Positions 1,310 to 11,321 of a stretch of DNA of 32,529 nucleotides are shown piece by piece. The notes beneath the pieces were generated by a model. That model saw only the letters and a program-made list of their open reading frames with translations. It searched no databases and was not told where the DNA came from. The translations under genes were made by a program, and so were the position numbers. Origin of the DNA: Acidobacteriota bacterium (GTDB taxonomy: Bacteria > Acidobacteriota > Terriglobia > Bryobacterales > Bryobacteraceae); the NCBI GenBank assembly GCA_016213775.1, contig JACQZR010000266.1, positions 1 to 32,529 on the forward strand. Direction: 5' to 3'. Positions within the stretch are counted from its first letter, which is position 1; each line of letters opens with the position of its first letter.

Positions 1310-4300
1310 ATGATGCGCAACTGTCTGTTGTTTCTCGCGGGGAGTATTCTCGCACTGGCACAAACCACCGGAACCGCCACCTTGGTGGGCACGCTGACCG
1401 ACTCAACCGGTGCAGTAGTTGCCGGAGCCAAAGTCACGGTGGTCAACATCGGAACATCTTTCACCTCGACAACGGTGACCAACAACGAAGGCTACTACTT
1501 CGTGCCGTACCTCAATCCTGGAACGTATCAACTCAGCATAGAAGCGGCTGGGTTCAAGCGTTACGTGCGCGACGGGGTAGCGCTGCGAACGAATGAATCT
1601 CCGCGCATCGACGTGATGCTCGAAGTCGGCGCGGTGAGCGATTCGATTCAGGTGACCGGCGCGCCTCCGCTGCTGGAAACCGAGACCTCGGTGTCGGGCG
1701 GTGTGCTGGGGGTCGACACGATCGTCAAGATCCCGGTACTGCAAAAGCTGGTGTTCCGGCTCACGCTATACCTGCCGGGAACGCAGGTGGTGAACGGGGT
1801 TCATGCGATGGGGCAGCGCGATCGCGCCATGGGATATGTGCTCGACGGGTTGAGCGCCAAGGAGCCGGTGCGCGGACCCAACAATTCCACCAACCAGGTG
1901 ATCACCTCGACCACCGATGCGATGACCGAAGTCAAGCTCTTTACCACGGGGATGCCGGCCGAATTCGGCCACTCGTCCGGCGGGCAGCTCTCCGCCGTTT
2001 TCCGCTCGGGCACCAACCAGTTTCACGGCAGCGGGGAAGACCGCTTTGTCAACAAACAGTTGATGCATCGCAACTACTTCGACGTAGGGCGTCCTACTGG
2101 ACCGTTTACCTATCACGAGATCACCGGAGTCGCATCCGGTCCGGTGTGGCTGCCGAAGCTGTACAACGGCAAGGACAAGACCTTCTTCCTATTCGGATAC
2201 ACGCGGCATCACGAGAATGGCGGTGAGAGCGTCCTGCGCGACGTGCCGAGTCCGGACATGCTCGCCGGCAACTTCAGCTTTGGTGGCGTGGGGCAAGCCA
2301 TCTACGATCCATTGACGACGCGGCAGGAAGGGACAACATGGCTCCGCACGCCATTGCCCGGGAACATCGTCCCGCAGTCGCGGTTCGACACGGTAGCGAA
2401 GAATTTTTTGGCTCAAAATCCATTCACGGCCCAGAACCAGACCGGCACGATAGACCGCCTGGGGCCACATCAGAACTACGCAAACACGACCGCGTACAAA
2501 TCCTTCCGCACGCGATTCGACATCAAGCTGGATCACCAGTTCTCTTCCGCGCACAAGATGTTTGGGCGCTACTCGCAATCTCACCACCGGGCTTTCTCCG
2601 ACCGTTGGGCGCTGGAAATCAACTGGCGGTTGATCGACCCGAACACGGTACCCATTCCCATCGACCAGGAGAACGTCGTCGTCTCCGACATTTGGACGTT
2701 CAGCCCGACGATCGTCAATGAACTGCGGTTGGGCATGAACCGCCGCAAGTTCACCCGCGTTCCGGAAGCCAACGGGCAGGGATGGGCGAAGAAGCTCGGC
2801 ATCCCCAATGTCGGCGATGACACGTTCCCGGGCTTCAGCATCACAACATATAACTACCGCATGCAACCCGGCGGGTATCAACAGGACGTAGGCGAGGATT
2901 TCACCTTCCAGGACAATTTCACGAAAGTGAGAGGAAAGCACACCCTCAAGTTTGGATATGAGCTGATCCGCACGCGCTACAACTCGCTCGCGCAGGCGTT
3001 GCCGTCAGGAACGTATACGATGGGCGGGACGGACGCGCCGTTTGTGGCGAACACCGGAAACAACTTCGCCGCGTTCCTGCTGGGCAGCGTCAGTTCCGCC
3101 ACGTTCACGCGCGCGGTGGCGAGTTGGCTGCCACGCTGGTGGTCGCATGCCTTCTATGCTCAGACCGACTGGAAGCCGTTGCGCAACGTGACGGTAAACC
3201 TGGGCTTGCGCTGGAGCTACGAGTCGCCGTTTAGCACCAAGTACGGCCAGCAATCGCAATTCGATCCCACGGCGCGCGATCCGATCACCGGCCGCCTGGG
3301 CGCCATCGTGCACGGGAAGGGCCTGTTAGCCAGGAAGGATCTGAACAATTTCCAGCCACGCGTCGGGCTTGCCTGGACACTGACTCCAAAGCTCGTTTTT
3401 CGCGGCAATTTTGGGATGATCACTTCGGACCTGTTCACCAACGGACTGAACCAGAACTTCGAGGAATATCAGGCAACGGGCGTAGTGGCGCAGACGCCCG
3501 GCGATCCGCGCATCGCCTTCCTGCTATCGCAAGGTCCTCCCACGGTCAACTTCCCGGCTGCCTCCGACGGTTCGGTACCATTCGTGGGCTCGAACTACTC
3601 CGGACGCAACGCCTCCTGGTTTGATCCGAACATGCGGTCGCCTTACGTGATGAACTGGTCAGGCGGTCTGCAATACCAACTCACCAGCGACGTTCTGACC
3701 GAGGTTCAGTACCAAGGGTCGGCGGGCGTGAAGCTGCTGAACAACTGGGACTATAACGCGATTCCGCTCGACATATCGAGAGATCCGGCGGTGCTGCAAC
3801 AGGTGTTCCAGGCGGCGCAGAACTACAAGCCTTACCCGCAGTTCGGCGCTATCCAGCATTACTCCAATTACGGCCACAACACCTATCACGGAGCGACGAT
3901 CCGCGGCGAAAAGCGTTTTTCGCGCGGCTTCTTCCTGAACGGGTTCTACACCTTCTCGAAGACCATCAACAACACGGACGGCGACGGTGGAGCGAGCGGC
4001 ATCACCTTTTACAACCGCAGTCTGGAAAAAGGCCGCGCCAACTACGACACAACGCACCGGTTCGTGAGCGTGTTCACCTCCCAGCTTCCGTTTGGCAAGG
4101 GCCGGAAGTACCTGCAACAGGGGTTTGCGAGTAGGATTTTCGGGGGCTGGGACTTCATGTACAGCCAGACGCTGCAGACGGGCGTACCCGTCACTATCGG
4201 CTTCAACGGCAGCCCGTTCAACTATCTGCCCGGCGCGCGCAGAGCGAATCAGGTATTGCCGAACGACCAGGCGAAGTTTGACGGATGGGCCATCGGCCCC

Positions 4301-4654
4301 AACCGGTTTCCGACGGCGGCGCAAAACCCGCTGTTGAATATCGACGCGTTCCGATACCCGGCCGCCTTCACGGCAGGGACCGTCGGGCGGAACACGATCA
4401 CCGGCACGTGGATCAACTGGGTGCAAACATCGCTCTCCAAGGAATTCCCGATCAAGGAAAGAGCGAAATTCATCCTCCGCGTGGACGTGAACAATCCGTT
4501 CAAGACCCAGGCATTCGCCGATCCTGACGCTGTCTTCAACACGCAACCTCCCGTTGGGTCGAGAACCTTTGGACGGCACAGCACTACTCGAGGGAGCTTC
4601 AGTGATGTCGGCGGCAGGTTAAACACGCTGCTGGTGTTGCGCGTCGAGTGGTAG
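1310..4654 (+). CDS. TonB-dependent-receptor-like outer-membrane protein with N-terminal carboxypeptidase regulatory-like domain
   Basis: This 1114-residue protein is probably an outer-membrane beta-barrel of the large acidobacterial Oar-like/CarboxypepD_reg TonB receptor family, whose members are thought to take up polymers or oligosaccharides; the substrate here is unknown. In order it has a signal peptide (MMRNCLLFLAGSILALAQ), a beta-sandwich CarboxypepD_reg domain (about 22-105, with the typical NxxGYYxxPxLxPGTYxL pattern), a plug-like region (about 115-245), and a long barrel rich in aromatic alternating strands. It ends in RVEW, a terminal aromatic residue as expected for barrel assembly. 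No clear TonB box is seen. Start: ATG at 1310 after a GGGGAG ribosome binding site; an ATG at 1313 is an alternative. An AT-rich GATATATC (1276-1283) may be its -10. No SusD-like partner is adjacent, which is normal in Acidobacteria. Confidence 0.9.
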   Translation: MMRNCLLFLAGSILALAQTTGTATLVGTLTDSTGAVVAGAKVTVVNIGTSFTSTTVTNNEGYYFVPYLNPGTYQLSIEAAGFKRYVRDGVALRTNESPRIDVMLEVGAVSDSIQVTGAPPLLETETSVSGGVLGVDTIVKIPVLQKLVFRLTLYLPGTQVVNGVHAMGQRDRAMGYVLDGLSAKEPVRGPNNSTNQVITSTTDAMTEVKLFTTGMPAEFGHSSGGQLSAVFRSGTNQFHGSGEDRFVNKQLMHRNYFDVGRPTGPFTYHEITGVASGPVWLPKLYNGKDKTFFLFGYTRHHENGGESVLRDVPSPDMLAGNFSFGGVGQAIYDPLTTRQEGTTWLRTPLPGNIVPQSRFDTVAKNFLAQNPFTAQNQTGTIDRLGPHQNYANTTAYKSFRTRFDIKLDHQFSSAHKMFGRYSQSHHRAFSDRWALEINWRLIDPNTVPIPIDQENVVVSDIWTFSPTIVNELRLGMNRRKFTRVPEANGQGWAKKLGIPNVGDDTFPGFSITTYNYRMQPGGYQQDVGEDFTFQDNFTKVRGKHTLKFGYELIRTRYNSLAQALPSGTYTMGGTDAPFVANTGNNFAAFLLGSVSSATFTRAVASWLPRWWSHAFYAQTDWKPLRNVTVNLGLRWSYESPFSTKYGQQSQFDPTARDPITGRLGAIVHGKGLLARKDLNNFQPRVGLAWTLTPKLVFRGNFGMITSDLFTNGLNQNFEEYQATGVVAQTPGDPRIAFLLSQGPPTVNFPAASDGSVPFVGSNYSGRNASWFDPNMRSPYVMNWSGGLQYQLTSDVLTEVQYQGSAGVKLLNNWDYNAIPLDISRDPAVLQQVFQAAQNYKPYPQFGAIQHYSNYGHNTYHGATIRGEKRFSRGFFLNGFYTFSKTINNTDGDGGASGITFYNRSLEKGRANYDTTHRFVSVFTSQLPFGKGRKYLQQGFASRIFGGWDFMYSQTLQTGVPVTIGFNGSPFNYLPGARRANQVLPNDQAKFDGWAIGPNRFPTAAQNPLLNIDAFRYPAAFTAGTVGRNTITGTWINWVQTSLSKEFPIKERAKFILRVDVNNPFKTQAFADPDAVFNTQPPVGSRTFGRHSTTRGSFSDVGGRLNTLLVLRVEW

Positions 4655-4736: not shown

Positions 4737-4744
4737 AGGAGGTG
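4737..4744 (+). promoter_or_regulatory. strong Shine-Dalgarno sequence that sets the start of the glycosyltransferase operon
   Basis: AGGAGGTG is fully complementary to the 16S rRNA tail and lies 5 nt before ATG 4750. It decides that start over an in-frame upstream candidate near 4648, which would overlap the receptor gene and add an unlikely leader. The 95-bp gap after the receptor shows no clear promoter or terminator. Confidence 0.75.
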
Positions 4745-4749
4745 GACCG

Positions 4750-5979
4750 ATGGCGGACTTCTATCAGACTGGCGTTGTCACCACATTGCATCGCCTGACG
4801 GCGAATCACGTCGAACGGCTCGAAGCGGACCTGGAGAAGTTCTCACGCAACAAGCCGATTGGGCTTGTACTGCCGGCCCTCTACTCGGAGTTCGAGACGA
4901 TGGCGATGCAGCGGATTGTGCCGCAACTGCGAAAGGTACGCTACCTGCAACGGATCGTTGTGGTGCTGGGGAGAGCGAACCTGGAGCAATATGAGAAAGC
5001 CCGGAGTTTCTTTGACGATTTCTACACTCCGGTCACCATGATCTGGGTGGACGGCGAGCGGATGCAGAACCTTCTGGCGATGCTCACCGAGCGGGGATTG
5101 TCGGCTGGCCCTGACGGCAAGGGACGATCCTGCTGGCTGGCCTATGGCTACCTGCTGGCGAAGCACGATTGCCAGATGATCGCGCTCCACGACTGCGACA
5201 TCATCAACTATGAGAGACAAATGCTGGCGCGGTTGTGCTACGCCGTGGCTCACCCGCACCTGCCGTTCGATTTCTGCAAAGGCTACTACGCCCGCGTGAC
5301 CGACCGCATGCACGGGCGCGTGACCCGCCTGTTCATGTCACCGTTGATTCGGGCAATGGAAGGAATGGCCCCGGCGAATCCGTTTCTGCGCTTTCTGGAT
5401 AGCTTCCGGTACCCGTTGGCCGGTGAGTTCGCGATGGATATCGACCTTGCGAGAGTGAACCGGATTCCCGCTGACTGGGGCCTCGAGGTCGGCGTACTCG
5501 CCGAAGTGTTCCGCAACTGTACGGTCGCGAGAACGTGCCAGGTGGACCTGATGGACAACTACGAGCATAAGCACCAGTCGCTTTCCACCGACGATCCGAC
5601 GAAAGGACTGGCGCGAATGGCTACCGACATCGCGAAATCGCTGTTCACGACATTGGCAGCCGAGGGTTTGGTCTTCACCGACGATCACTTCCGCACCCTG
5701 GAAGTGCGCTATGTGCGGATGGCGCAGGATTCGATCGCACGCTACTACGCCGATGCGATGCTGAACGGGCTGAAGTTCGACCGGCACTCCGAGGAGTTGG
5801 CGGTTTCGGTGTTCGCCAAGAGCCTGAGCGCGGCGGCAACGGATTTCATTCGAGACCCGCGCGGGCTACCGCTGATTCCGAATTGGAACCGGGTGTTGGC
5901 GGCGATGCCGGAGTTCTTCGAACTGCTGCAGGACGCCGTGGAGAAGGAGTCCCGGCCGCTGGCGCGTCGCAGCGCCTGA
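4750..5979 (+). CDS. GT81-type glycosyltransferase, similar to glucosyl-3-phosphoglycerate synthase (GpgS)
   Basis: GpgS enzymes transfer glucose from a nucleotide sugar to 3-phosphoglycerate, the first step to glucosylglycerate, a compatible solute. The 409-residue protein follows the family plan. It has an N-terminal Rossmann-like nucleotide-sugar part starting LVLPALYSEFE (39-49), a GKGRSCWLAYGYLLA segment (123-137) and the metal-binding DxD-type motif HDCDI (147-151). Next come FCKGYYARVTDRMHGRVTRL (175-194), an acceptor-site-like YPLAGEFAMD (221-230) and WGLEVGVLAEVF (243-254). These match the order of motifs I recall for mycobacterial GpgS; the family match is from memory and the acceptor is inferred. 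The second gene of the operon follows 10 nt later. A GpgP-type phosphatase, the usual partner, is absent from the window, so either another phosphatase acts or the product is different. Confidence 0.78.
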   Translation: MADFYQTGVVTTLHRLTANHVERLEADLEKFSRNKPIGLVLPALYSEFETMAMQRIVPQLRKVRYLQRIVVVLGRANLEQYEKARSFFDDFYTPVTMIWVDGERMQNLLAMLTERGLSAGPDGKGRSCWLAYGYLLAKHDCQMIALHDCDIINYERQMLARLCYAVAHPHLPFDFCKGYYARVTDRMHGRVTRLFMSPLIRAMEGMAPANPFLRFLDSFRYPLAGEFAMDIDLARVNRIPADWGLEVGVLAEVFRNCTVARTCQVDLMDNYEHKHQSLSTDDPTKGLARMATDIAKSLFTTLAAEGLVFTDDHFRTLEVRYVRMAQDSIARYYADAMLNGLKFDRHSEELAVSVFAKSLSAAATDFIRDPRGLPLIPNWNRVLAAMPEFFELLQDAVEKESRPLARRSA

Positions 5980-5989
5980 AGGAGAACCC

Positions 5990-7342
5990 ATGGCAACGTC
6001 GCTGCCGGAAGAAGCCCGGCGGGCCGCGGATGTAATCCGGCGCGCCGACATCGTGATCGGCATTCCGAGCTACAACAACGAACGGACGATTGGTCATGTG
6101 GTGCGGGCCGCTTATGCCGGGCTTGCGAAGTACTTTCCGCAACTCACCGCCGTCGTGGTGAATTCAGACGGTGGGTCGACGGATGGCACACAGGAGGCCG
6201 TCCTGTCGGCGCGCGTGGAGGCAAACAGTCTGATGCTGCTATCTACGCCCCTGCTGGCTGCCCACCGGCTGACCTTCCCGTACCACGGAGTGCCGGGAAA
6301 AGGTAGCGCATTCCGGCTGGTGTTTCAAATGGCCGAGCAACTCGACGCCAAGGTCTGCGCGGTGGTGGACTCCGATCTGCGGTCGATTACGCCGGAGTGG
6401 ATCGACCTGCTGATCAGGCCGGTGCTCTTTGCGGGTTTTGACTTTGTGGCGCCTTACTATCAGCGGCACAAGTACGACGGAACCATTACCAACAGCATTG
6501 TGTACCCGCTCACGCGGATGCTCTACGGAGTGTCCGTCCGGCAGCCCATCGGAGGCGAGTTTGGAGTGTCCGCGAGGCTGGTGAAGCGATACCTCGAACG
6601 TCAGGATTGGGAGACGGACGTGGCGCGGTTTGGGATCGACATCTGGATGACCACACTCGCTCTGGCTGAAGGATACCGCGTGTGTCAGAGTTTCCTGGGG
6701 GCGAAGCTGCATGATGCAAAAGACCCGGGGTCAGATCTGTCGGCGATGCTGCAACAGGTGGTGGGGAGTGTGTTCAACCTGATGGAAGAGTACTCGCCAG
6801 TGTGGCAGAAGGGGTCGGGGAGCACTCCCGCGGAGCTTTTTGGATTCCGGTTTGACGTTGGGCTGGATCCGATTCATGTGAATGTTCATCGCATGGAGGA
6901 CGCGTTTCGGCGCGGCTGCGAAGAGTTGGGCGAGGTTTGGGAGACGGTGCTCGAGAAGAAGACGCTCTCTGCCGTGCGTGCTCTGGCCGCGGGATTGGGA
7001 AAGAACGGAAACGGGCTCCACCTCAGCGACGAGCTTTGGGCGGAGGTGGTGCTGGAGTTCGCATGTGCGTACCGGCGGCGGTCGCTCGCTCGAGGCATGA
7101 TCCTGCGATCGCTGACGCCGCTTTACCTGGCGAGAGTTGCTTCCTTCGTTCGAGACACCGAGAATCTCGTCGCGTCCCAAGTCGAGGACAAGATCGAGCA
7201 GCTCTGCCTGACGTTTGAGACTTTCAAGCCGGGACTGATCGCGCGCTGGAACGGCAATTCCGGCCAGAGTGAGGCGAGTCCGGTGGAACTAGGCGCTGTG
7301 GTGTCCGCGACGAACGAATCGAAAATTGGAGGTGAGAAATGA
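5990..7342 (+). CDS. GT-A glycosyltransferase, candidate glucosylglycerate synthase-like enzyme
   Basis: This 450-residue GT-A fold enzyme starts at ATG 5990 after an AAGGAG ribosome binding site. Motifs in order: IGIPSYNNERTIG (23-35, nucleotide-binding first strand), VNSDGGSTDGT (57-67), VPGKGSAFRLVF (101-112, the GKG segment seen in solute-type glycosyltransferases), VDSDL (126-130, metal-binding DxD), FVAPYYQRHKYDGTITNSIVYPL (around 152-174, acceptor region) and RQPIGGEFGVS (184-194). The last two resemble the glucosylglycerate synthase group that joins a sugar nucleotide directly to glycerate; this assignment is from memory. The C-terminal 170 residues are helical and do not match a domain I know. 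It is co-transcribed with the GpgS-like gene, and its stop overlaps the start of the MscS-like gene (ATGA at 7339-7342). An alternative is a second sugar transfer giving a di-glycosylated glycerate. Confidence 0.72.
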   Translation: MATSLPEEARRAADVIRRADIVIGIPSYNNERTIGHVVRAAYAGLAKYFPQLTAVVVNSDGGSTDGTQEAVLSARVEANSLMLLSTPLLAAHRLTFPYHGVPGKGSAFRLVFQMAEQLDAKVCAVVDSDLRSITPEWIDLLIRPVLFAGFDFVAPYYQRHKYDGTITNSIVYPLTRMLYGVSVRQPIGGEFGVSARLVKRYLERQDWETDVARFGIDIWMTTLALAEGYRVCQSFLGAKLHDAKDPGSDLSAMLQQVVGSVFNLMEEYSPVWQKGSGSTPAELFGFRFDVGLDPIHVNVHRMEDAFRRGCEELGEVWETVLEKKTLSAVRALAAGLGKNGNGLHLSDELWAEVVLEFACAYRRRSLARGMILRSLTPLYLARVASFVRDTENLVASQVEDKIEQLCLTFETFKPGLIARWNGNSGQSEASPVELGAVVSATNESKIGGEK

Positions 7343-8040
7343 TTGAAGTCATGAAGAAGGTTCTGGAGAGCGCCGTCGACCGCCTCCAATTCCAAATCAC
7401 CACGTATCTACCGTCACTGCTGGCCGCTCTGACCCTGGTGCTCGGAGCGTACCTGACGGCGCTTTTCGTGCGCTGGCTGATCTACAAAATCTTCAAAGGT
7501 CTGACCATTGACAAGTTCCTGCGGCAAAGCGGAGTGGCGTTCCTCGTGGACCCGTCGGGGCGGCTTCGGGCAACACGGCTGGCAGCCGAGAGCGCATACT
7601 GGTGCATCCTGTTAGGGGGTGTCCTGTTGGGGCTGAACGTCTTCGGCACCGATCTCACGACGCAGATCGTCCAGGGCTTTGTGTTCCTGCTTCCCAAACT
7701 CTTTGTCGCGGGGTTAATCCTGTTGGGCGGAACCTGGCTCGGCCATTATCTGGGACGCAGCATGCTCGTCTGGGCTGTGAACGAGAACTTTCCCACGCCG
7801 CGCCGGCTGGCGACGGTGGTCCGTATCCTCATCATGTTTGTGGCAGTGGTGGTGGCGGCGGACAGGCTGGACTTCGCCAAGCAGGTATTCCTGTCGGCGT
7901 TCATCATCATTGTGGGTGGCGTTGTTCTGGCCGGCGGGCTGGCGATCGGGCTCAGCGGAAATGGAGTGCGACGGTTCTTTGAGGAGAAGCGGGAGCAGTC
8001 GCGCGAGTCCAACGAGAGGTCGCTGTGGAGCCATCTGTGA
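7339..8040 (+). CDS. MscS-like mechanosensitive channel-type membrane protein, transmembrane part only
   Basis: This 233-residue integral membrane protein has five predicted helices (about 23-48, 85-104, 113-137, 155-174, 184-206). The last one is Gly/Ala-rich and ends LAIGLSGNGVRRFFEE, which resembles the pore helix of MscS channels just before the beta domain. The cytoplasmic beta and alpha/beta vestibule domains of MscS are missing; a charged 25-residue tail (EEKREQSRESNER) follows instead. This matches the 'conserved TM helix' (PF05552-type) subgroup. MscS-family channels open under membrane tension and release solutes after hypo-osmotic shock. Start ATG 7339 follows GGAGGT with good spacing and overlaps the preceding stop, so it is translationally coupled to the glycosyltransferase. 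That pairing supports a role in osmolyte release or volume control, which is inference. Confidence 0.8.
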   Translation: MIEVMKKVLESAVDRLQFQITTYLPSLLAALTLVLGAYLTALFVRWLIYKIFKGLTIDKFLRQSGVAFLVDPSGRLRATRLAAESAYWCILLGGVLLGLNVFGTDLTTQIVQGFVFLLPKLFVAGLILLGGTWLGHYLGRSMLVWAVNENFPTPRRLATVVRILIMFVAVVVAADRLDFAKQVFLSAFIIIVGGVVLAGGLAIGLSGNGVRRFFEEKREQSRESNERSLWSHL

Positions 8041-8068: not shown

Positions 8069-9430
8069 CTACTTCACCACCACCGGCCGCCCCACATCCC
8101 CATCCATCTTCACCGGCAGCCGCCACACCCCTGTCCCTTCCCGATCAGTAAAATAAAGCCCCGATTCCGAAGGCCCATGTGTGTCCCCATCCGCCCACAG
8201 CGCATAGAACTCTGGATGCGCATTCACCGGCTTCCGCGCATACGTATGATTGAACCGCTCCGCACGAGTCAACTGCTTTACACGAGTCCAACGGCGCCCC
8301 GCATCCTTGCTCAACCACATCACCATGTCCCCGCCCGTCATGAACGGCTGCGGTCCCGGATCAGTCGGCGCAATGATCCGCCACGCCCCAGTCGCCTCCA
8401 GATACAACGACCCGAAATCATAATTGTGATCCGAAGTCGTCACCCCGCGAATATCCCAGCCCTTCCCATTCCACCGAGCCGTCTTCCATTCCTGAGGACC
8501 GCTCCCCGGTCCCGGCTCCCACCCCTTACTTGTCAAAAACAGAATTACCGGCCGTCCATCCAACCCGAACTCGACATTCTTCAAATACACCAGCTTCTTC
8601 TCTGCCGCGTAATCGTGAACCAAGGCCGGAGTCGCCACCTCGCGCAACGGCGGCGTCACTACGCGCCCATCCGCACTCTTCCACGTCCGCCCCAAATCCG
8701 AAGTCTCCAAGTAATAAAGATTGGTCCGCGCATTCAACCCCTGTGGCTTGGGATGATAATTGAACACTGTCGCCGTCCGCGCGCCATCATGCGCCGTGAT
8801 CTGGTAATGCCCCAGATCCATCCGCGCCAACAACGAAGGCTCGCCCCACTGAACCCCATCCGCGCTCGTATTCCAGTACAAACTCCGCCCGCCATTCTCA
8901 TACAGCGTGTGCAGAAAGAAGAACCCCTTCCGATCCACCCACCGCGGATGCCCATACGAGAAATTCGTAGTCTTCACCAAGGTCCACCCATCGATGTCAT
9001 AGGGCCGATCGCTGCGCCAGACAAACGAATCCCGCGACGTTCCATGCGCATTCGAAAACACCCACAGATGCCCCGCCCCGTCCATCGCCAACACCGGGTT
9101 GTCGTGCGCATCCCCGGTCTTCTTGTTCACCAGAACCACCGGCCTCGGCACCGTCTTCGTCTTGTGATCGAAGTACGAAACCATGTGTAGCAGTTCCTGC
9201 TTCCCGGCCGTGCTGCCGCCGTAGCAGAAGAACGTCTTCCCTGCCTTCGCCGAATAAATCGCAATCGGCGACTGCTGCTGCGGATACGTCGCAAATCCGC
9301 CGCTGTATTTGTAGACGTACTTGTCCTTGGTCGGCTGATTGTAATACCAGATCCCCCGATAGCCGTTATCACGCGGCATCTGCTCGGCCATCGCCGCGCC
9401 CGCGAGCACCAACACCATCATCAATCGCAT
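8069..9430 (-). CDS. secreted BNR_4 (BNR repeat-like) protein
   Basis: This 453-residue protein has a short signal peptide (MRLMMVLVLAGAAMAEQ) and a predicted beta-propeller. It starts with DNGYRGIWYYNQP and carries repeated Asp-box-like or BNR-like blades such as SDLGRTWKSADGR, SADGVQWGE and SKDAGRRWTRV. This pattern fits the BNR_4 family (PF15892), found in secreted polysaccharide-active proteins including some ulvan-lyase-type lyases; no catalytic assignment can be made from the sequence alone. A His/Asp-rich conserved stretch (DAHDNPVLAMDGAGHLWVF) lies early in the propeller. It is monocistronic, convergent with the MscS-like gene (28-bp gap) and divergent from DUF309 (29-bp gap). Start ATG 9430: a TATACT box lies 11 nt upstream and no ribosome binding site is visible. 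Confidence 0.85.
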   Translation of the reverse strand: MRLMMVLVLAGAAMAEQMPRDNGYRGIWYYNQPTKDKYVYKYSGGFATYPQQQSPIAIYSAKAGKTFFCYGGSTAGKQELLHMVSYFDHKTKTVPRPVVLVNKKTGDAHDNPVLAMDGAGHLWVFSNAHGTSRDSFVWRSDRPYDIDGWTLVKTTNFSYGHPRWVDRKGFFFLHTLYENGGRSLYWNTSADGVQWGEPSLLARMDLGHYQITAHDGARTATVFNYHPKPQGLNARTNLYYLETSDLGRTWKSADGRVVTPPLREVATPALVHDYAAEKKLVYLKNVEFGLDGRPVILFLTSKGWEPGPGSGPQEWKTARWNGKGWDIRGVTTSDHNYDFGSLYLEATGAWRIIAPTDPGPQPFMTGGDMVMWLSKDAGRRWTRVKQLTRAERFNHTYARKPVNAHPEFYALWADGDTHGPSESGLYFTDREGTGVWRLPVKMDGDVGRPVVVK

Positions 9431-9459: not shown

Positions 9460-9789
9460 ATGCGCTCTGCCATCGATCTCTTCAACGCCGGCAAGTTCTT
9501 TGAAAGCCACGAAGCCTTCGAGGAAGAGTGGCGCACCGCAACCGGTCCCCGCCGCCTCTTCCTCCAGGCCTTGATCCATTTCGCTGTCGCCTGCCATCAC
9601 TCACAACGCGCCAACACCATCGGCGCGCAACGTCAAATCCGCAAAGGACTCGTCAAACTCCAGCCCTACCTGCCCGCTTACGAAACCATCGACACCGGCC
9701 GCCTCTACTCCGGCTTCCTCCCATTCGTCGAGGCCCTCGAAGCAGGCACGCCCACCGGACCATTCCCCCTCATCCACTTGCTCGAATAA
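9460..9789 (+). CDS. DUF309 domain protein
   Basis: This small 109-residue helical protein of the DUF309 family (PF03745) has no known biochemical function. The family hallmarks are clear: LFNAGKFFESHEAFEEEWR near residues 8-26, with the HExxE-like arrangement of His and Glu, and LFLQALIHFAVACHH at about 33-47. The motif is suggestive of a metal site, but this is not established. It starts at ATG 9460, 10 nt after a TATAAT box, so the transcript is probably leaderless or nearly so. Its 3' end overlaps the 3' end of the convergent IscU-like gene by 20 bp (9770-9789). Confidence 0.88.
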   Translation: MRSAIDLFNAGKFFESHEAFEEEWRTATGPRRLFLQALIHFAVACHHSQRANTIGAQRQIRKGLVKLQPYLPAYETIDTGRLYSGFLPFVEALEAGTPTGPFPLIHLLE

Positions 9790-10126
9790 ATCGCCGCACC
9801 GCATCCACCGCCAGCACCGCCGCGTGCTTCGATTCCGCCGACAGCCCGCCCACCGCCTCCTCGATCACCTCCGCCGTCACACCCGCCAACTCCGCCCGCG
9901 ACCTCCCCTCCATCCACTCACTCAACGCGCTCCCCGTCGCAATCGACGCCGTACACCCGCGCGCCTTGTACCGCACCGCCTTCACCACATCCCGATCCCA
10001 CAACACCGACACTCTCAGAATGTCCCCGCACACCGGATTCATCACCTCTACTGTCTGCGCGGGCGGCTCCAACTCCCCCGTATTGCGCGGGTTCTGAAAA
10101 TGGTCCAGCAGCTTCTGTGAGTACAT
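9770..10126 (-). CDS. IscU/NifU-N-type iron-sulfur cluster assembly scaffold, third ligand cysteine missing
   Basis: The 118-residue protein has the U-type scaffold fold signatures. These are MYSQKLLDHFQNPRNTGEL at the N-terminus, then NPVCGD (Cys33, Asp35), then ARGCTASIATGSALSEWMEG (Cys58). U-type scaffolds assemble Fe-S clusters using sulfur from a cysteine desulfurase, with three cysteines and often a histidine as ligands. Here the third position reads SKHAAVLAVDAV: His101 is kept but the following cysteine is Ala102. No other cysteine exists in the protein. It may be a variant scaffold or carrier, or may use another ligand. No desulfurase gene is near; the divergent neighbour is a radical SAM enzyme that needs a 4Fe-4S cluster, which gives a plausible functional link. 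The start at 10126 has no clear ribosome binding site. Confidence 0.88.
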   Translation of the reverse strand: MYSQKLLDHFQNPRNTGELEPPAQTVEVMNPVCGDILRVSVLWDRDVVKAVRYKARGCTASIATGSALSEWMEGRSRAELAGVTAEVIEEAVGGLSAESKHAAVLAVDAVRRFIRASG

Positions 10127-10135
10127 GCAATGTCC

Positions 10136-10146
10136 TACAATTGATA
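10136..10146. promoter_or_regulatory. overlapping divergent -10 boxes (IscU-like gene / radical SAM gene)
   Basis: TACAAT at 10136-10141 on the plus strand lies 10 nt before GTG 10152. TATCAA on the minus strand (bases 10146-10141) lies 14 nt before the IscU-like ATG at 10126. The boxes share base 10141. The spacing copies the BNR_4/DUF309 arrangement. Confidence 0.45.
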
Positions 10147-10151
10147 CAAAC

Positions 10152-11321
10152 GTGTCCGAGAGGCAGAGCTCTTACTTCCCCATCCTACGGCAGCGTGTGC
10201 GGCAACGCTCGTTTCGCGCCCTCTTTCTCTTCGTCACCTCGCGTTGCAATTCGCTCTGCCGCACCTGCTTCTACTTCGACAAACTCAACTCGCGCGACGA
10301 CCTCACCTTCGCCCAACTGGAAAAAATCTCCGCCACCGCACCGCCGTTTGAAAAACTCTGGCTCAGCGGCGGCGAACCCTTCCTGCGCGAAGAACTCCCG
10401 GAAATCGTCGGCATGTTCGCGCGCAACAACGCCATCGCCAACGTCAACCTCCCCACCAACGGCCTCCTACCCGACAAGATCTTCCGTGCAGTCGACCGCA
10501 TGCTCGCCGCGACACCCAACGTATCCATCGATCTCAACTTCTCCCTCGACGGTCTCGCCAACACGCATGACGCCATCCGCGGCGTGCCCAACAATTTCCG
10601 CCGCACGCTCGCCACTATTGAAGAAGCCGAACGCCGCTACAAAAGCGTCCGCCGCCTGCGCCGCAACGTCCTCACCGTGATCACCCGCGAGAACTACAAC
10701 GAGATCGTTGAACTCGGCCTCCACCTTGCCGCGGAAGGCCGCATTGACGGCCAATACTTCGAAGTCGTCCGCGGCCAAACACCCGACGCTTCGCTCAAAA
10801 ACCTCACGCAATCCGGCGTGGCCGCACTCCATCGTAGGCTGATGCCGTTCCATCGCCACTACGCGCGCAAACTCTTCGCCCATCTACCCGCGCCCGTCCG
10901 CCAGTTCGCCACCACCTACTACCTCGGCAATCTGCGCTTGCACTTCGATCTGCACGAACAGTGCCTCGAACAGCCGCGCAAATGGCCGATGCGATGCACC
11001 GCGGGCGAAACCACCATCGTCATCGACCACAACGGCAAGTTCCGATCCTGCGAGATGCGCGACATCGTTGGCGACCTTGCCGCATTCGACTACGATATCC
11101 GCGCTGCGCTCGCATCCACCGCCATGCGCGGCGAAATCGCCGCCATCGAAAGGGCCAACTGCTGGTGTACCCACAGTTGCTTCATTCAGGAAAGTTCCAA
11201 GTTCTCTCCCAGTGTGCAGTTGTTCCGCATCCCCTGGGCATGGCTGCGCCAGCGCTCGCAAGGCCTCGACGGCATCCCGCTGGAGCAGGTGGAACGATTC
11301 CGCGCACTGGAGGCTGTTTAG
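10152..11321 (+). CDS. radical SAM protein with SPASM-like C-terminal cysteine cluster
   Basis: Radical SAM enzymes reductively cleave S-adenosylmethionine at a 4Fe-4S cluster to start radical chemistry. The cluster motif CNSLCRTC (CxxxCxxC, Cys32/36/39) is followed by a LWLSGGEPFLREEL segment (SAM-binding GGE motif) and a LNFSLDG strand. The C-terminal third carries further cysteines: RCTAGETTIVIDHNGKFRSCEMRD and NCWCTHSC. This resembles a SPASM/twitch auxiliary-cluster domain, as in peptide-modifying and sulfatase-maturing enzymes. The substrate is unknown; no short precursor peptide gene is evident next to it. Start: GTG 10152 is preferred because a TACAAT box sits 10 nt before it; an in-frame ATG at 10125 would overlap the IscU-like start codon on the other strand and has no ribosome binding site. 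The stop overlaps the GTG of the Nudix gene by one base. Confidence 0.85.
   Translation: MSERQSSYFPILRQRVRQRSFRALFLFVTSRCNSLCRTCFYFDKLNSRDDLTFAQLEKISATAPPFEKLWLSGGEPFLREELPEIVGMFARNNAIANVNLPTNGLLPDKIFRAVDRMLAATPNVSIDLNFSLDGLANTHDAIRGVPNNFRRTLATIEEAERRYKSVRRLRRNVLTVITRENYNEIVELGLHLAAEGRIDGQYFEVVRGQTPDASLKNLTQSGVAALHRRLMPFHRHYARKLFAHLPAPVRQFATTYYLGNLRLHFDLHEQCLEQPRKWPMRCTAGETTIVIDHNGKFRSCEMRDIVGDLAAFDYDIRAALASTAMRGEIAAIERANCWCTHSCFIQESSKFSPSVQLFRIPWAWLRQRSQGLDGIPLEQVERFRALEAV

Follow-up and report, generated by a model that had tools for sequence, protein, structure and literature searches.

The window analysed here is a 32,529-nucleotide (nt) stretch of DNA from an Acidobacteriota bacterium of the family Bryobacteraceae (positions 1 to 32,529 of contig JACQZR010000266.1, assembly GCA_016213775.1). 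It holds three consecutive genes predicted to encode a GpgS-like glucosyl-3-phosphoglycerate synthase (gene 1), a glycosyltransferase resembling mannosylglycerate synthase, MGS (gene 2), and a minimal MscS-like membrane protein (gene 3). We compared these genes and their surroundings across genomes, and found that the glycosyltransferase and the putative channel belong together more closely than either does with gene 1. Loci are numbered with the letter L, genomes with G and contigs with C, G000 being the source genome of the window.

Open frames on the forward strand confirm the three genes at the coordinates first proposed for them (Table 1), with a gap of 10 nt between genes 1 and 2 and an ATGA overlap (7339-7342) between genes 2 and 3. 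The start of gene 1 is the ATG at 4750; an alternative, longer GTG frame runs from 4648. The coupling of the three genes is upheld by spacing, overlap and conserved order. A consensus scan, blind to other promoter types, found no sigma-70-like promoter 5' of gene 1, so that the term "one operon" is based on spacing and conservation and not on a transcript.

Table 1. Features of the three-gene locus and the basis on which each was assigned (RBS, ribosome-binding site; aa, amino acids).
Feature	Position	Strand	Basis
AGGAGGT RBS of gene 1	4737..4743	+	sequence read; 6 nt 5' of ATG 4750
Gene 1, GpgS-like glucosyl-3-phosphoglycerate synthase, 409 aa	4750..5979	+	NF040724; PDB profile match; catalytic residues
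AGGAG RBS of gene 2, within the 10-nt gap	5980..5984	+	sequence read
Gene 2, MGS-like GT-A glycosyltransferase with C-terminal helical domain, 450 aa	5990..7342	+	PF21969; AlphaFold model; Foldseek
GGAGGT RBS of gene 3, within gene 2	7328..7333	+	sequence read
Gene 3, minimal MscS-like membrane protein, 233 aa	7339..8040	+	PF05552; model; Foldseek
Codons for C-terminal His-Leu of gene 3 (residues 232-233), 3' of variable linker	8032..8037	+	alignment; tail counts

The assignment of gene 1 as GpgS-like holds. The GpgS model NF040724 matches its residues 3-400 at E 1.4e-108 (363 bits, against a curated cut-off of 700), and its profile matches solved structures of GpgS (7p5l, 7pdo) and MpgS (3f1y). 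The DxD motif, the Lys-Asp-Glu ion-pair residues, P-L-[SA]-G-E and the G-R-V-T acceptor loop are all present, elements whose roles (DxD, the Lys-Asp-Glu network, the PLSGE motif and Thr187) are set out for GpgS in the available text of PMC2581804. Residues K124, D148, D150, G189-R190, G225-E226, E246 and H275 are identical in 60 of 60 aligned rows, among which the window's own gene is possibly included twice; within the loop, V occurs in 53 and T in 58 of the 60. An apparent fusion of gene 1 to a 470-aa N-terminal part at L050 and L053 was rejected: the upstream frame overlaps another open reading frame (ORF) common to five loci and is therefore read as a chance open frame.

Gene 2 had been called glucosylglycerate-synthase-like, and this is supported by a match to PF21969 (MGS_GT) above its cut-off (28.9 bits against 27) and by MGS as the best structural match. 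The AlphaFold model (pLDDT 86.6) aligns over its full length with Rhodothermus mannosylglycerate synthase 2y4j, its best match in the PDB by Foldseek (E 3.8e-16, 414 columns, rmsd 5.0; TM-score 0.75 by target and 0.64 by query). Gene 2 thus shares with the Rhodothermus marinus enzyme (2bo4, 2y4j) the full-length fold, the DxD motif and the R/D/T acceptor-loop positions, and differs from it in sequence, with 16-17 % identity in structural alignments at an rmsd of about 5. A profile alignment equates R159, D163 and T167 of gene 2, which are conserved in intact gene-2 copies, with R131 and D135 of MGS, which we take to be its glycerate-binding residues, and with T139. In the same alignment the GpgS loop G-R-V-T reads G-T-I-T in gene 2, a change from Arg to Thr. 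According to the available text of PMC2581804, T139 of MGS and its counterpart in GpgS contact the acceptor carboxylate. The acceptor residues of gene 2 fit non-phosphorylated glycerate, a step from residues to acceptor that we infer. We know of no channel partner of R. marinus MGS.

The generic GT2 model PF00535 also gives gene 2 a weak match (20.3 bits, cut-off 23.3). This would suit an explanation in which the enzymes glucosylate an envelope lipid or polysaccharide and the membrane protein plays an accessory part instead of forming a channel, as would the initiation of a lipopolysaccharide by mycobacterial GpgS described in the available text of PMC2674218. Counter to this are the full-length structural match to MGS, the GpgP and glycerate kinase neighbours described below and the finding that 1 of 20 hand-picked Pfam neighbours is a cell-wall protein (M23 peptidase, L139). 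We consider an envelope role very improbable.

The MscS-like call for gene 3 is upheld by PF05552 (MscS conserved TM helix), which scores 34.2 bits against a cut-off of 22; NF033912 scores 43 bits, under its cut-off of 100. The gene-3 profile matches MscS chains 9seh, 9sdb and 9sdg at E 0.003-0.005. No match to the MscS beta domain (PF00924) was found in gene 3 at E up to 1, and the model (pLDDT 84.2) shows five long helices and a C-terminal helix at 207-232, with no beta domain or cage. As judged from profiles and model, gene 3 is MscS-like and not a full MscS: the pore region is related, and the cytoplasmic beta domain and cage are not present.

Among 61 genomes searched (the source genome and 60 relatives), gene 1 was found in 25. 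The complete trio occurs in order at 18 of the 23 loci at which gene 1 has at least 62 % identity, both loci of the source genome being counted. We do not consider the trio a chance arrangement, because its order is repeated at a second locus of this genome and across these close relatives. Adjacency is thus conserved within Acidobacteria and extends beyond them, and the possibility that the three genes are rarely adjacent in related genomes is not borne out. The other five close loci comprise three that end at a contig edge, one without gene 2 (G034) and one without both partners (G018). Four further gene-1 loci, at 48-54 % identity, have no adjoining partners; one of the genomes concerned, G022, carries a gene 2-gene 3 pair on another contig. 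The second trio of the source genome, on contig C20, shows 74/68/51 % identity to genes 1, 2 and 3 of the window. A third gene 2-gene 3 pair, on C300 (L036 6778-8823, reverse strand), has a degenerate active site, its DxD reading N..W, and its gene 2 is a member of the clade of degenerate glycosyltransferases discussed below.

A convergent gpgP gene lies just 3' of gene 3 in 10 of the 18 complete trios; another stretch stops 0.6 kb past gene 3. The locus had been proposed to be a self-contained unit, which is not the case here: the phosphatase for the GpgS product is not 3' of gene 3, and of the two homologues in this genome one adjoins the second trio on C20 and the other is on C32. In the window, the position held by convergent gpgP in close relatives is occupied by a gene for a BNR-repeat (PF15892) protein (8069-9430, reverse strand). 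At the C20 trio (L035 5921-11232) an Hsp20-like gene, named by eye, lies 5' on the same strand and a convergent MPGP/GpgP phosphatase gene lies 3'. Hsp20 was considered as a conserved neighbour of the trio and rejected, being found only at this C20 locus (1 of 139 loci).

Scanning named genomes with an alignment of gene 2 returned at least 575 relatives, and neighbourhood counts were taken from the best 80, which are spread over Acidobacteriota, Nitrospirota, 'Deltaproteobacteria', Thermodesulfobacteriota, Zixibacteria, KSB1 and further groups. At 78 of these 80 loci gene 3 lies 3' of gene 2 in the same orientation, with a gap of at most 298 nt, a proportion that describes the nearest relatives and not every gene 2, since the query alignment was made from paired genes; the count includes L127, where gene 3 is split, and L093, where it is cut at a contig end. 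The two exceptions are L077, where the contig ends, and L090. Of the 80 stretches, 36 also contain gene 1 and 30 an MPGP/GpgP phosphatase. Conservation is tightest for gene 2 with gene 3, and not for the trio. A search for a gene 2-gene 3 fusion protein gave no ORF matching both profiles.

Other neighbours of the pair were identified with Pfam and NCBIfam from a hand-picked, not random, selection. The phosphatase of L092 scores above the cut-off of TIGR02461 and six others tested score above that of the wider family TIGR01486. Glycerate 2-kinase occurs at 7 of 139 loci; at L085 and L099 its Pfam domains (DUF4147 and MOFRL) are above cut-off and the NCBIfam models, where run, below. TreT and TPS/TPP genes lie directly 5' of the pair in L105 and L128, both from Nitrospirota, and a nucleotidyl transferase gene is among the neighbours in L111. 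Gene order varies further in G143 (L191; mscS-gpgS-gpgP-glycerate kinase-gene 2) and G116 (L188; gpgP-glycerate kinase-gene 2-gpgS). GpgS was present in 11 of 12 further genomes of the named scan, including 9 of 10 having none in the gene-2 stretch. A glucosylglycerate pathway is supported by an MPGP-family phosphatase (GpgP), by glycerate 2-kinase and by a GpgS in which every catalytic residue examined is present.

Two further features were seen beside the pair. A protein of about 386 aa is encoded 5' of gene 2 at three gpgP-carrying loci, L092 (3789-4949; Syntrophaceae), L100 (3788-4948; Thermodesulfobacteriota) and L109 (3795-4952; an uncultured bacterium), and neither Pfam nor NCBIfam gives a match for the copy in L092. 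In one Nitrospirota genome, a gene for a full MscS, beta and C-terminal domains included (L139 3924-4946), stands directly before gene 2-gene 3.

We then considered an even sample of 199 Acidobacteriota genomes, the source genome included, with a threshold of E 1e-30 for gene 2 and GpgS. Hits were obtained in 51 genomes for gene 2, in 63 for gene-3-like proteins and in 33 for gene 1; a retest of 49 of the 148 gene-2-negative genomes at a lower threshold added two with a broken gene 2. Intact and broken copies were sorted by nine active-site positions, a copy in G216 being counted as intact despite one change among the nine. GpgS accompanies intact gene 2 in 31 of 35 genomes, was found at E 1e-30 in 0 of the 18 genomes having only a broken gene 2, and occurs in 2 of the 146 sample genomes where no gene 2 was found.

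This dependence may indicate that gene 2 acts after GpgS and GpgP rather than on an alternative route, adding a second sugar to glucosylglycerate to give glucosylglucosylglycerate or mannosylglucosylglycerate (MGG), with the channel venting the product. A diglycosyl glycerate is a real osmolyte, namely MGG in Rhodopirellula baltica (available text of PMC3694870). Gene 2, however, retains the acceptor-site positions of MGS, in which glycerate itself is glycosylated, and the glycerate 2-kinase neighbours suggest that free glycerate is at hand. We regard a second-sugar reaction as unlikely.

All 19 broken copies found adjoin gene 3 (17 in the sample and two at the lower threshold, C300 included), where the pairing in G167 assumes a gene 2 split over two contig ends. 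Their decay varies, most having lost the Lys and DxD. Intact copies were paired with gene 3 in 12 of 39 cases and loosely linked to it in one (G143). For sequence comparison we distinguished intact paired (class I, 97 rows), intact unpaired (class II, 26) and broken paired copies (class III, 17; list drawn up by eye). Left out were L093, L057, L077 and L051 (contig-end cuts), L127 (split gene 3), L090 (intact, no gene 3), L149/L191 (one rearranged locus), L198 (a fragment), redundant sequences and those shorter than 330 aa.

In a tree of 77 gene-2 sequences, which includes 34 of the 97 class-I rows, class III forms one clade (support 100/100), as does class II (100/99). Class III has kept its C-terminal helical domain (346-424) close to the class-I consensus, with a mean match of 0.76, against 0.21 and 0.35 for the catalytic glycosyltransferase half. 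The corresponding values for class II are 0.62 for the C-terminal domain and 0.65 and 0.74 for the catalytic half. The region between the domains (261-345) is similar in class III and class II, at 0.46 and 0.49.

In another explanation gene 2 serves chiefly to regulate the synthase or flux, a role that the degenerate lineage would have kept. By analogy, the available text of PMC3634074 describes a GT4 protein of Thermoproteus tenax that is required for full TPSP activity through complex formation. Arguing against such a role, the nine checked positions are unchanged throughout classes I and II except for single changes in L088 and L197 and the truncated row L051. Moreover, class III occurs in genomes where GpgS was not found, so that GpgS is unlikely to be its target there. 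A mainly regulatory function seems to us quite unlikely.

The C-terminus of gene 3 also tracks pairing. Gene-3 proteins paired with gene 2 have 115 distinct complete tails, of which 107 end in His followed by L, I, V, M or F, and the other eight end in PL, YL, HW or QL. In class I, H232 and L233 are conserved at 0.94 and 0.85, against 0.17-0.57 for the preceding 14 residues (up to 96 aligned proteins). The ending is also found in gene 3 adjoining broken gene 2, with a different linker. It occurs in 0 of 20 distinct tails of unpaired gene-3 relatives, about nine of which (by eye) come from longer proteins with additional C-terminal sequence and make a poorer comparison; both tail groups are related sequences, so that the value of a Fisher test on these counts cannot be read as the probability of independent events. 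A first count had given 23 unpaired tails, two of them with the His ending (at L191, which is rearranged but still linked, and at L127, where gene 3 is split). These two, and another fragment from L127, were afterwards judged not truly unpaired. In G034, gene 3 directly follows gene 1, convergent gpgP still adjoins, gene 2 was not found at E 1e-5, and the His-hydrophobic tail is lost. This is a single natural case.

We interpret the operon as one instance of a widespread module for osmoadaptation, in which gene 1 would couple NDP-glucose to 3-phosphoglycerate, and the GpgP phosphatase, encoded elsewhere in this genome and beside gene 3 in many relatives, would free glucosylglycerate. As an enzyme of MGS/Ggs type, gene 2 would most likely use glycerate directly, the phosphorylated and direct routes running side by side. 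Persephonella marina reportedly (J Bacteriol 2007) has both the two-step GpgS/GpgP and the one-step Ggs pathway to glucosylglycerate in one organism. The chemistry proposed here would be the same. Gene 3 would supply an MscS-type pore without a cytoplasmic cage, a probable solute exit on down-shock.

Beyond this shared metabolism, genes 2 and 3 may form a functional pair, because the tail accompanies gene-2 adjacency and because the pair survives in the lineage where gene 2 lacks active-site residues. Persistence of the pair after that loss suggests that the enzyme is also a channel partner. The tail might hold the glycosyltransferase at the cytoplasmic opening of the channel, where the enzyme would anchor or gate the channel. 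We put the probability at roughly 0.57 that this is a glucosylglycerate module in which the MGS-like glycosyltransferase also partners an MscS-type channel that has no cage, perhaps by docking on the channel's tail. More tentatively, and with somewhat more doubt than belief, we suggest that the soluble glycosyltransferase is the missing cytoplasmic subunit of the channel, bound via the His-hydrophobic tail. In most lineages it would also make the osmolyte, so that synthesis and release would be coupled in one complex; in one Acidobacteriota lineage it would be a catalytically dead channel subunit.

The original prediction had the operon making and venting one solute. The glucosylglycerate pathway is supported, and the proposal describes at most part of the role, because gene 2-gene 3 also occurs where GpgS was not found and where gene 2 lacks active-site residues.

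Several observations weigh against a physical or functional partnership, or against parts of it. Intact gene 2 can do without the channel, as 26 of 39 intact copies have no adjoining gene 3; L090, with the order gpgS-gene 2-gpgP and no gene 3, is a further instance (1 of 80 loci). Classes II and III, each being one clade, may each reflect one event, so that their counts are not independent, and class III includes some long branches of odd composition. In G250 and G167 the broken copies retain DxD and are changed at other positions. As the profile was made from paired genes, the search may have missed unpaired broken copies; the same origin limits the 78 of 80. Mirror-tree support for docking on the C-terminal domain of gene 2 was sought and the result was opposite: gene-3 distances track the glycosyltransferase half (partial r 0.61) more closely than residues 300-424 (0.33), which argues against docking on the C-terminal domain alone. 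For the channel itself, Foldseek ranks the E. coli MscS pore region (2oau) first for gene 3, but at E 1.7 (probability 0.98, rmsd 2.1 over 89 columns). On the metabolic side, the window trio lacks gpgP, and the near-constant company of GpgS and intact gene 2 fits a sequential reaction equally well as a parallel route.

Alternatively, genes 2 and 3 may only be co-transcribed as members of a shared osmotic-stress regulon, their proteins never touching and the channel acting as a general valve. MscS channels are unspecific, which would accord with this. So would the many unpaired intact copies and the varied partners of the pair (trehalose, NDP-sugar and glycogen genes). Such an arrangement would not readily explain why gene 3 follows gene 2 so regularly among the best loci, why the pair outlasts the loss of active-site residues and occurs where GpgS was not found, or why the tail tracks pairing. 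We consider co-transcription alone somewhat unlikely.

At first no described operon of this form had been known. Among the matches listed, the open literature gave no report of the MGS-like/MscS pair, the degenerate lineage or the tail, most subscription papers lying outside the search. Those matches include one comparable, non-homologous operon, msc-gt-tpsp of T. tenax, for which the available text of PMC3634074 gives a trehalose synthase, a GT4 protein, a 197-aa MscS-TM-like protein and a make-then-vent model. The likeness lies in a three-gene operon of an osmolyte synthase, a glycosyltransferase and a short MscS-TM-like protein. It differs in its osmolyte (trehalose there, glucosylglycerate here) and its glycosyltransferase (GT4, PimA-like, there; GT-A, MGS-like, here). 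That text calls the operon unique to Thermoproteus and Pyrobaculum and, as far as it is available, describes no degenerate glycosyltransferase lineage or tail signature. The window does not carry the GT4, TPSP and MSC combination of that operon type, having GpgS, an MGS-like glycosyltransferase and an MscS-like protein and no TPSP. Pseudomonas aeruginosa CmpX is an MscS homologue in one transcriptional unit with its neighbour cfrX, and differs in partner and regulation (SigX), according to the available text of PMC10965496. In the open literature searched, glucosylglycerate is hardly ever mentioned together with 'Acidobacteria', the one spelling covered.

Should the pairing be physical, a metabolic enzyme would have been turned into a channel subunit. 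This would suggest what takes the place of the cytoplasmic cage in certain minimal proteins of MscS type, and the making of an osmolyte would be coupled to its release. The last two residues of the channel are a sharp test point for such an enzyme-channel interaction. We also predict that these Acidobacteriota, and Nitrospirota as well, use glucosylglycerate as a solute under stress.

Around the trio, the window holds a gene for a 1114-aa outer membrane beta-barrel protein directly 5' (1310-4654, forward strand; PF25183, with a PF13620 carboxypeptidase-regulatory-like domain). Further 3' lies a radical SAM protein gene (10125-11321, forward strand; PF04055), adjoined by genes for a DUF309 protein (9460-9789) and a NifU-N protein (9770-10126, reverse strand).

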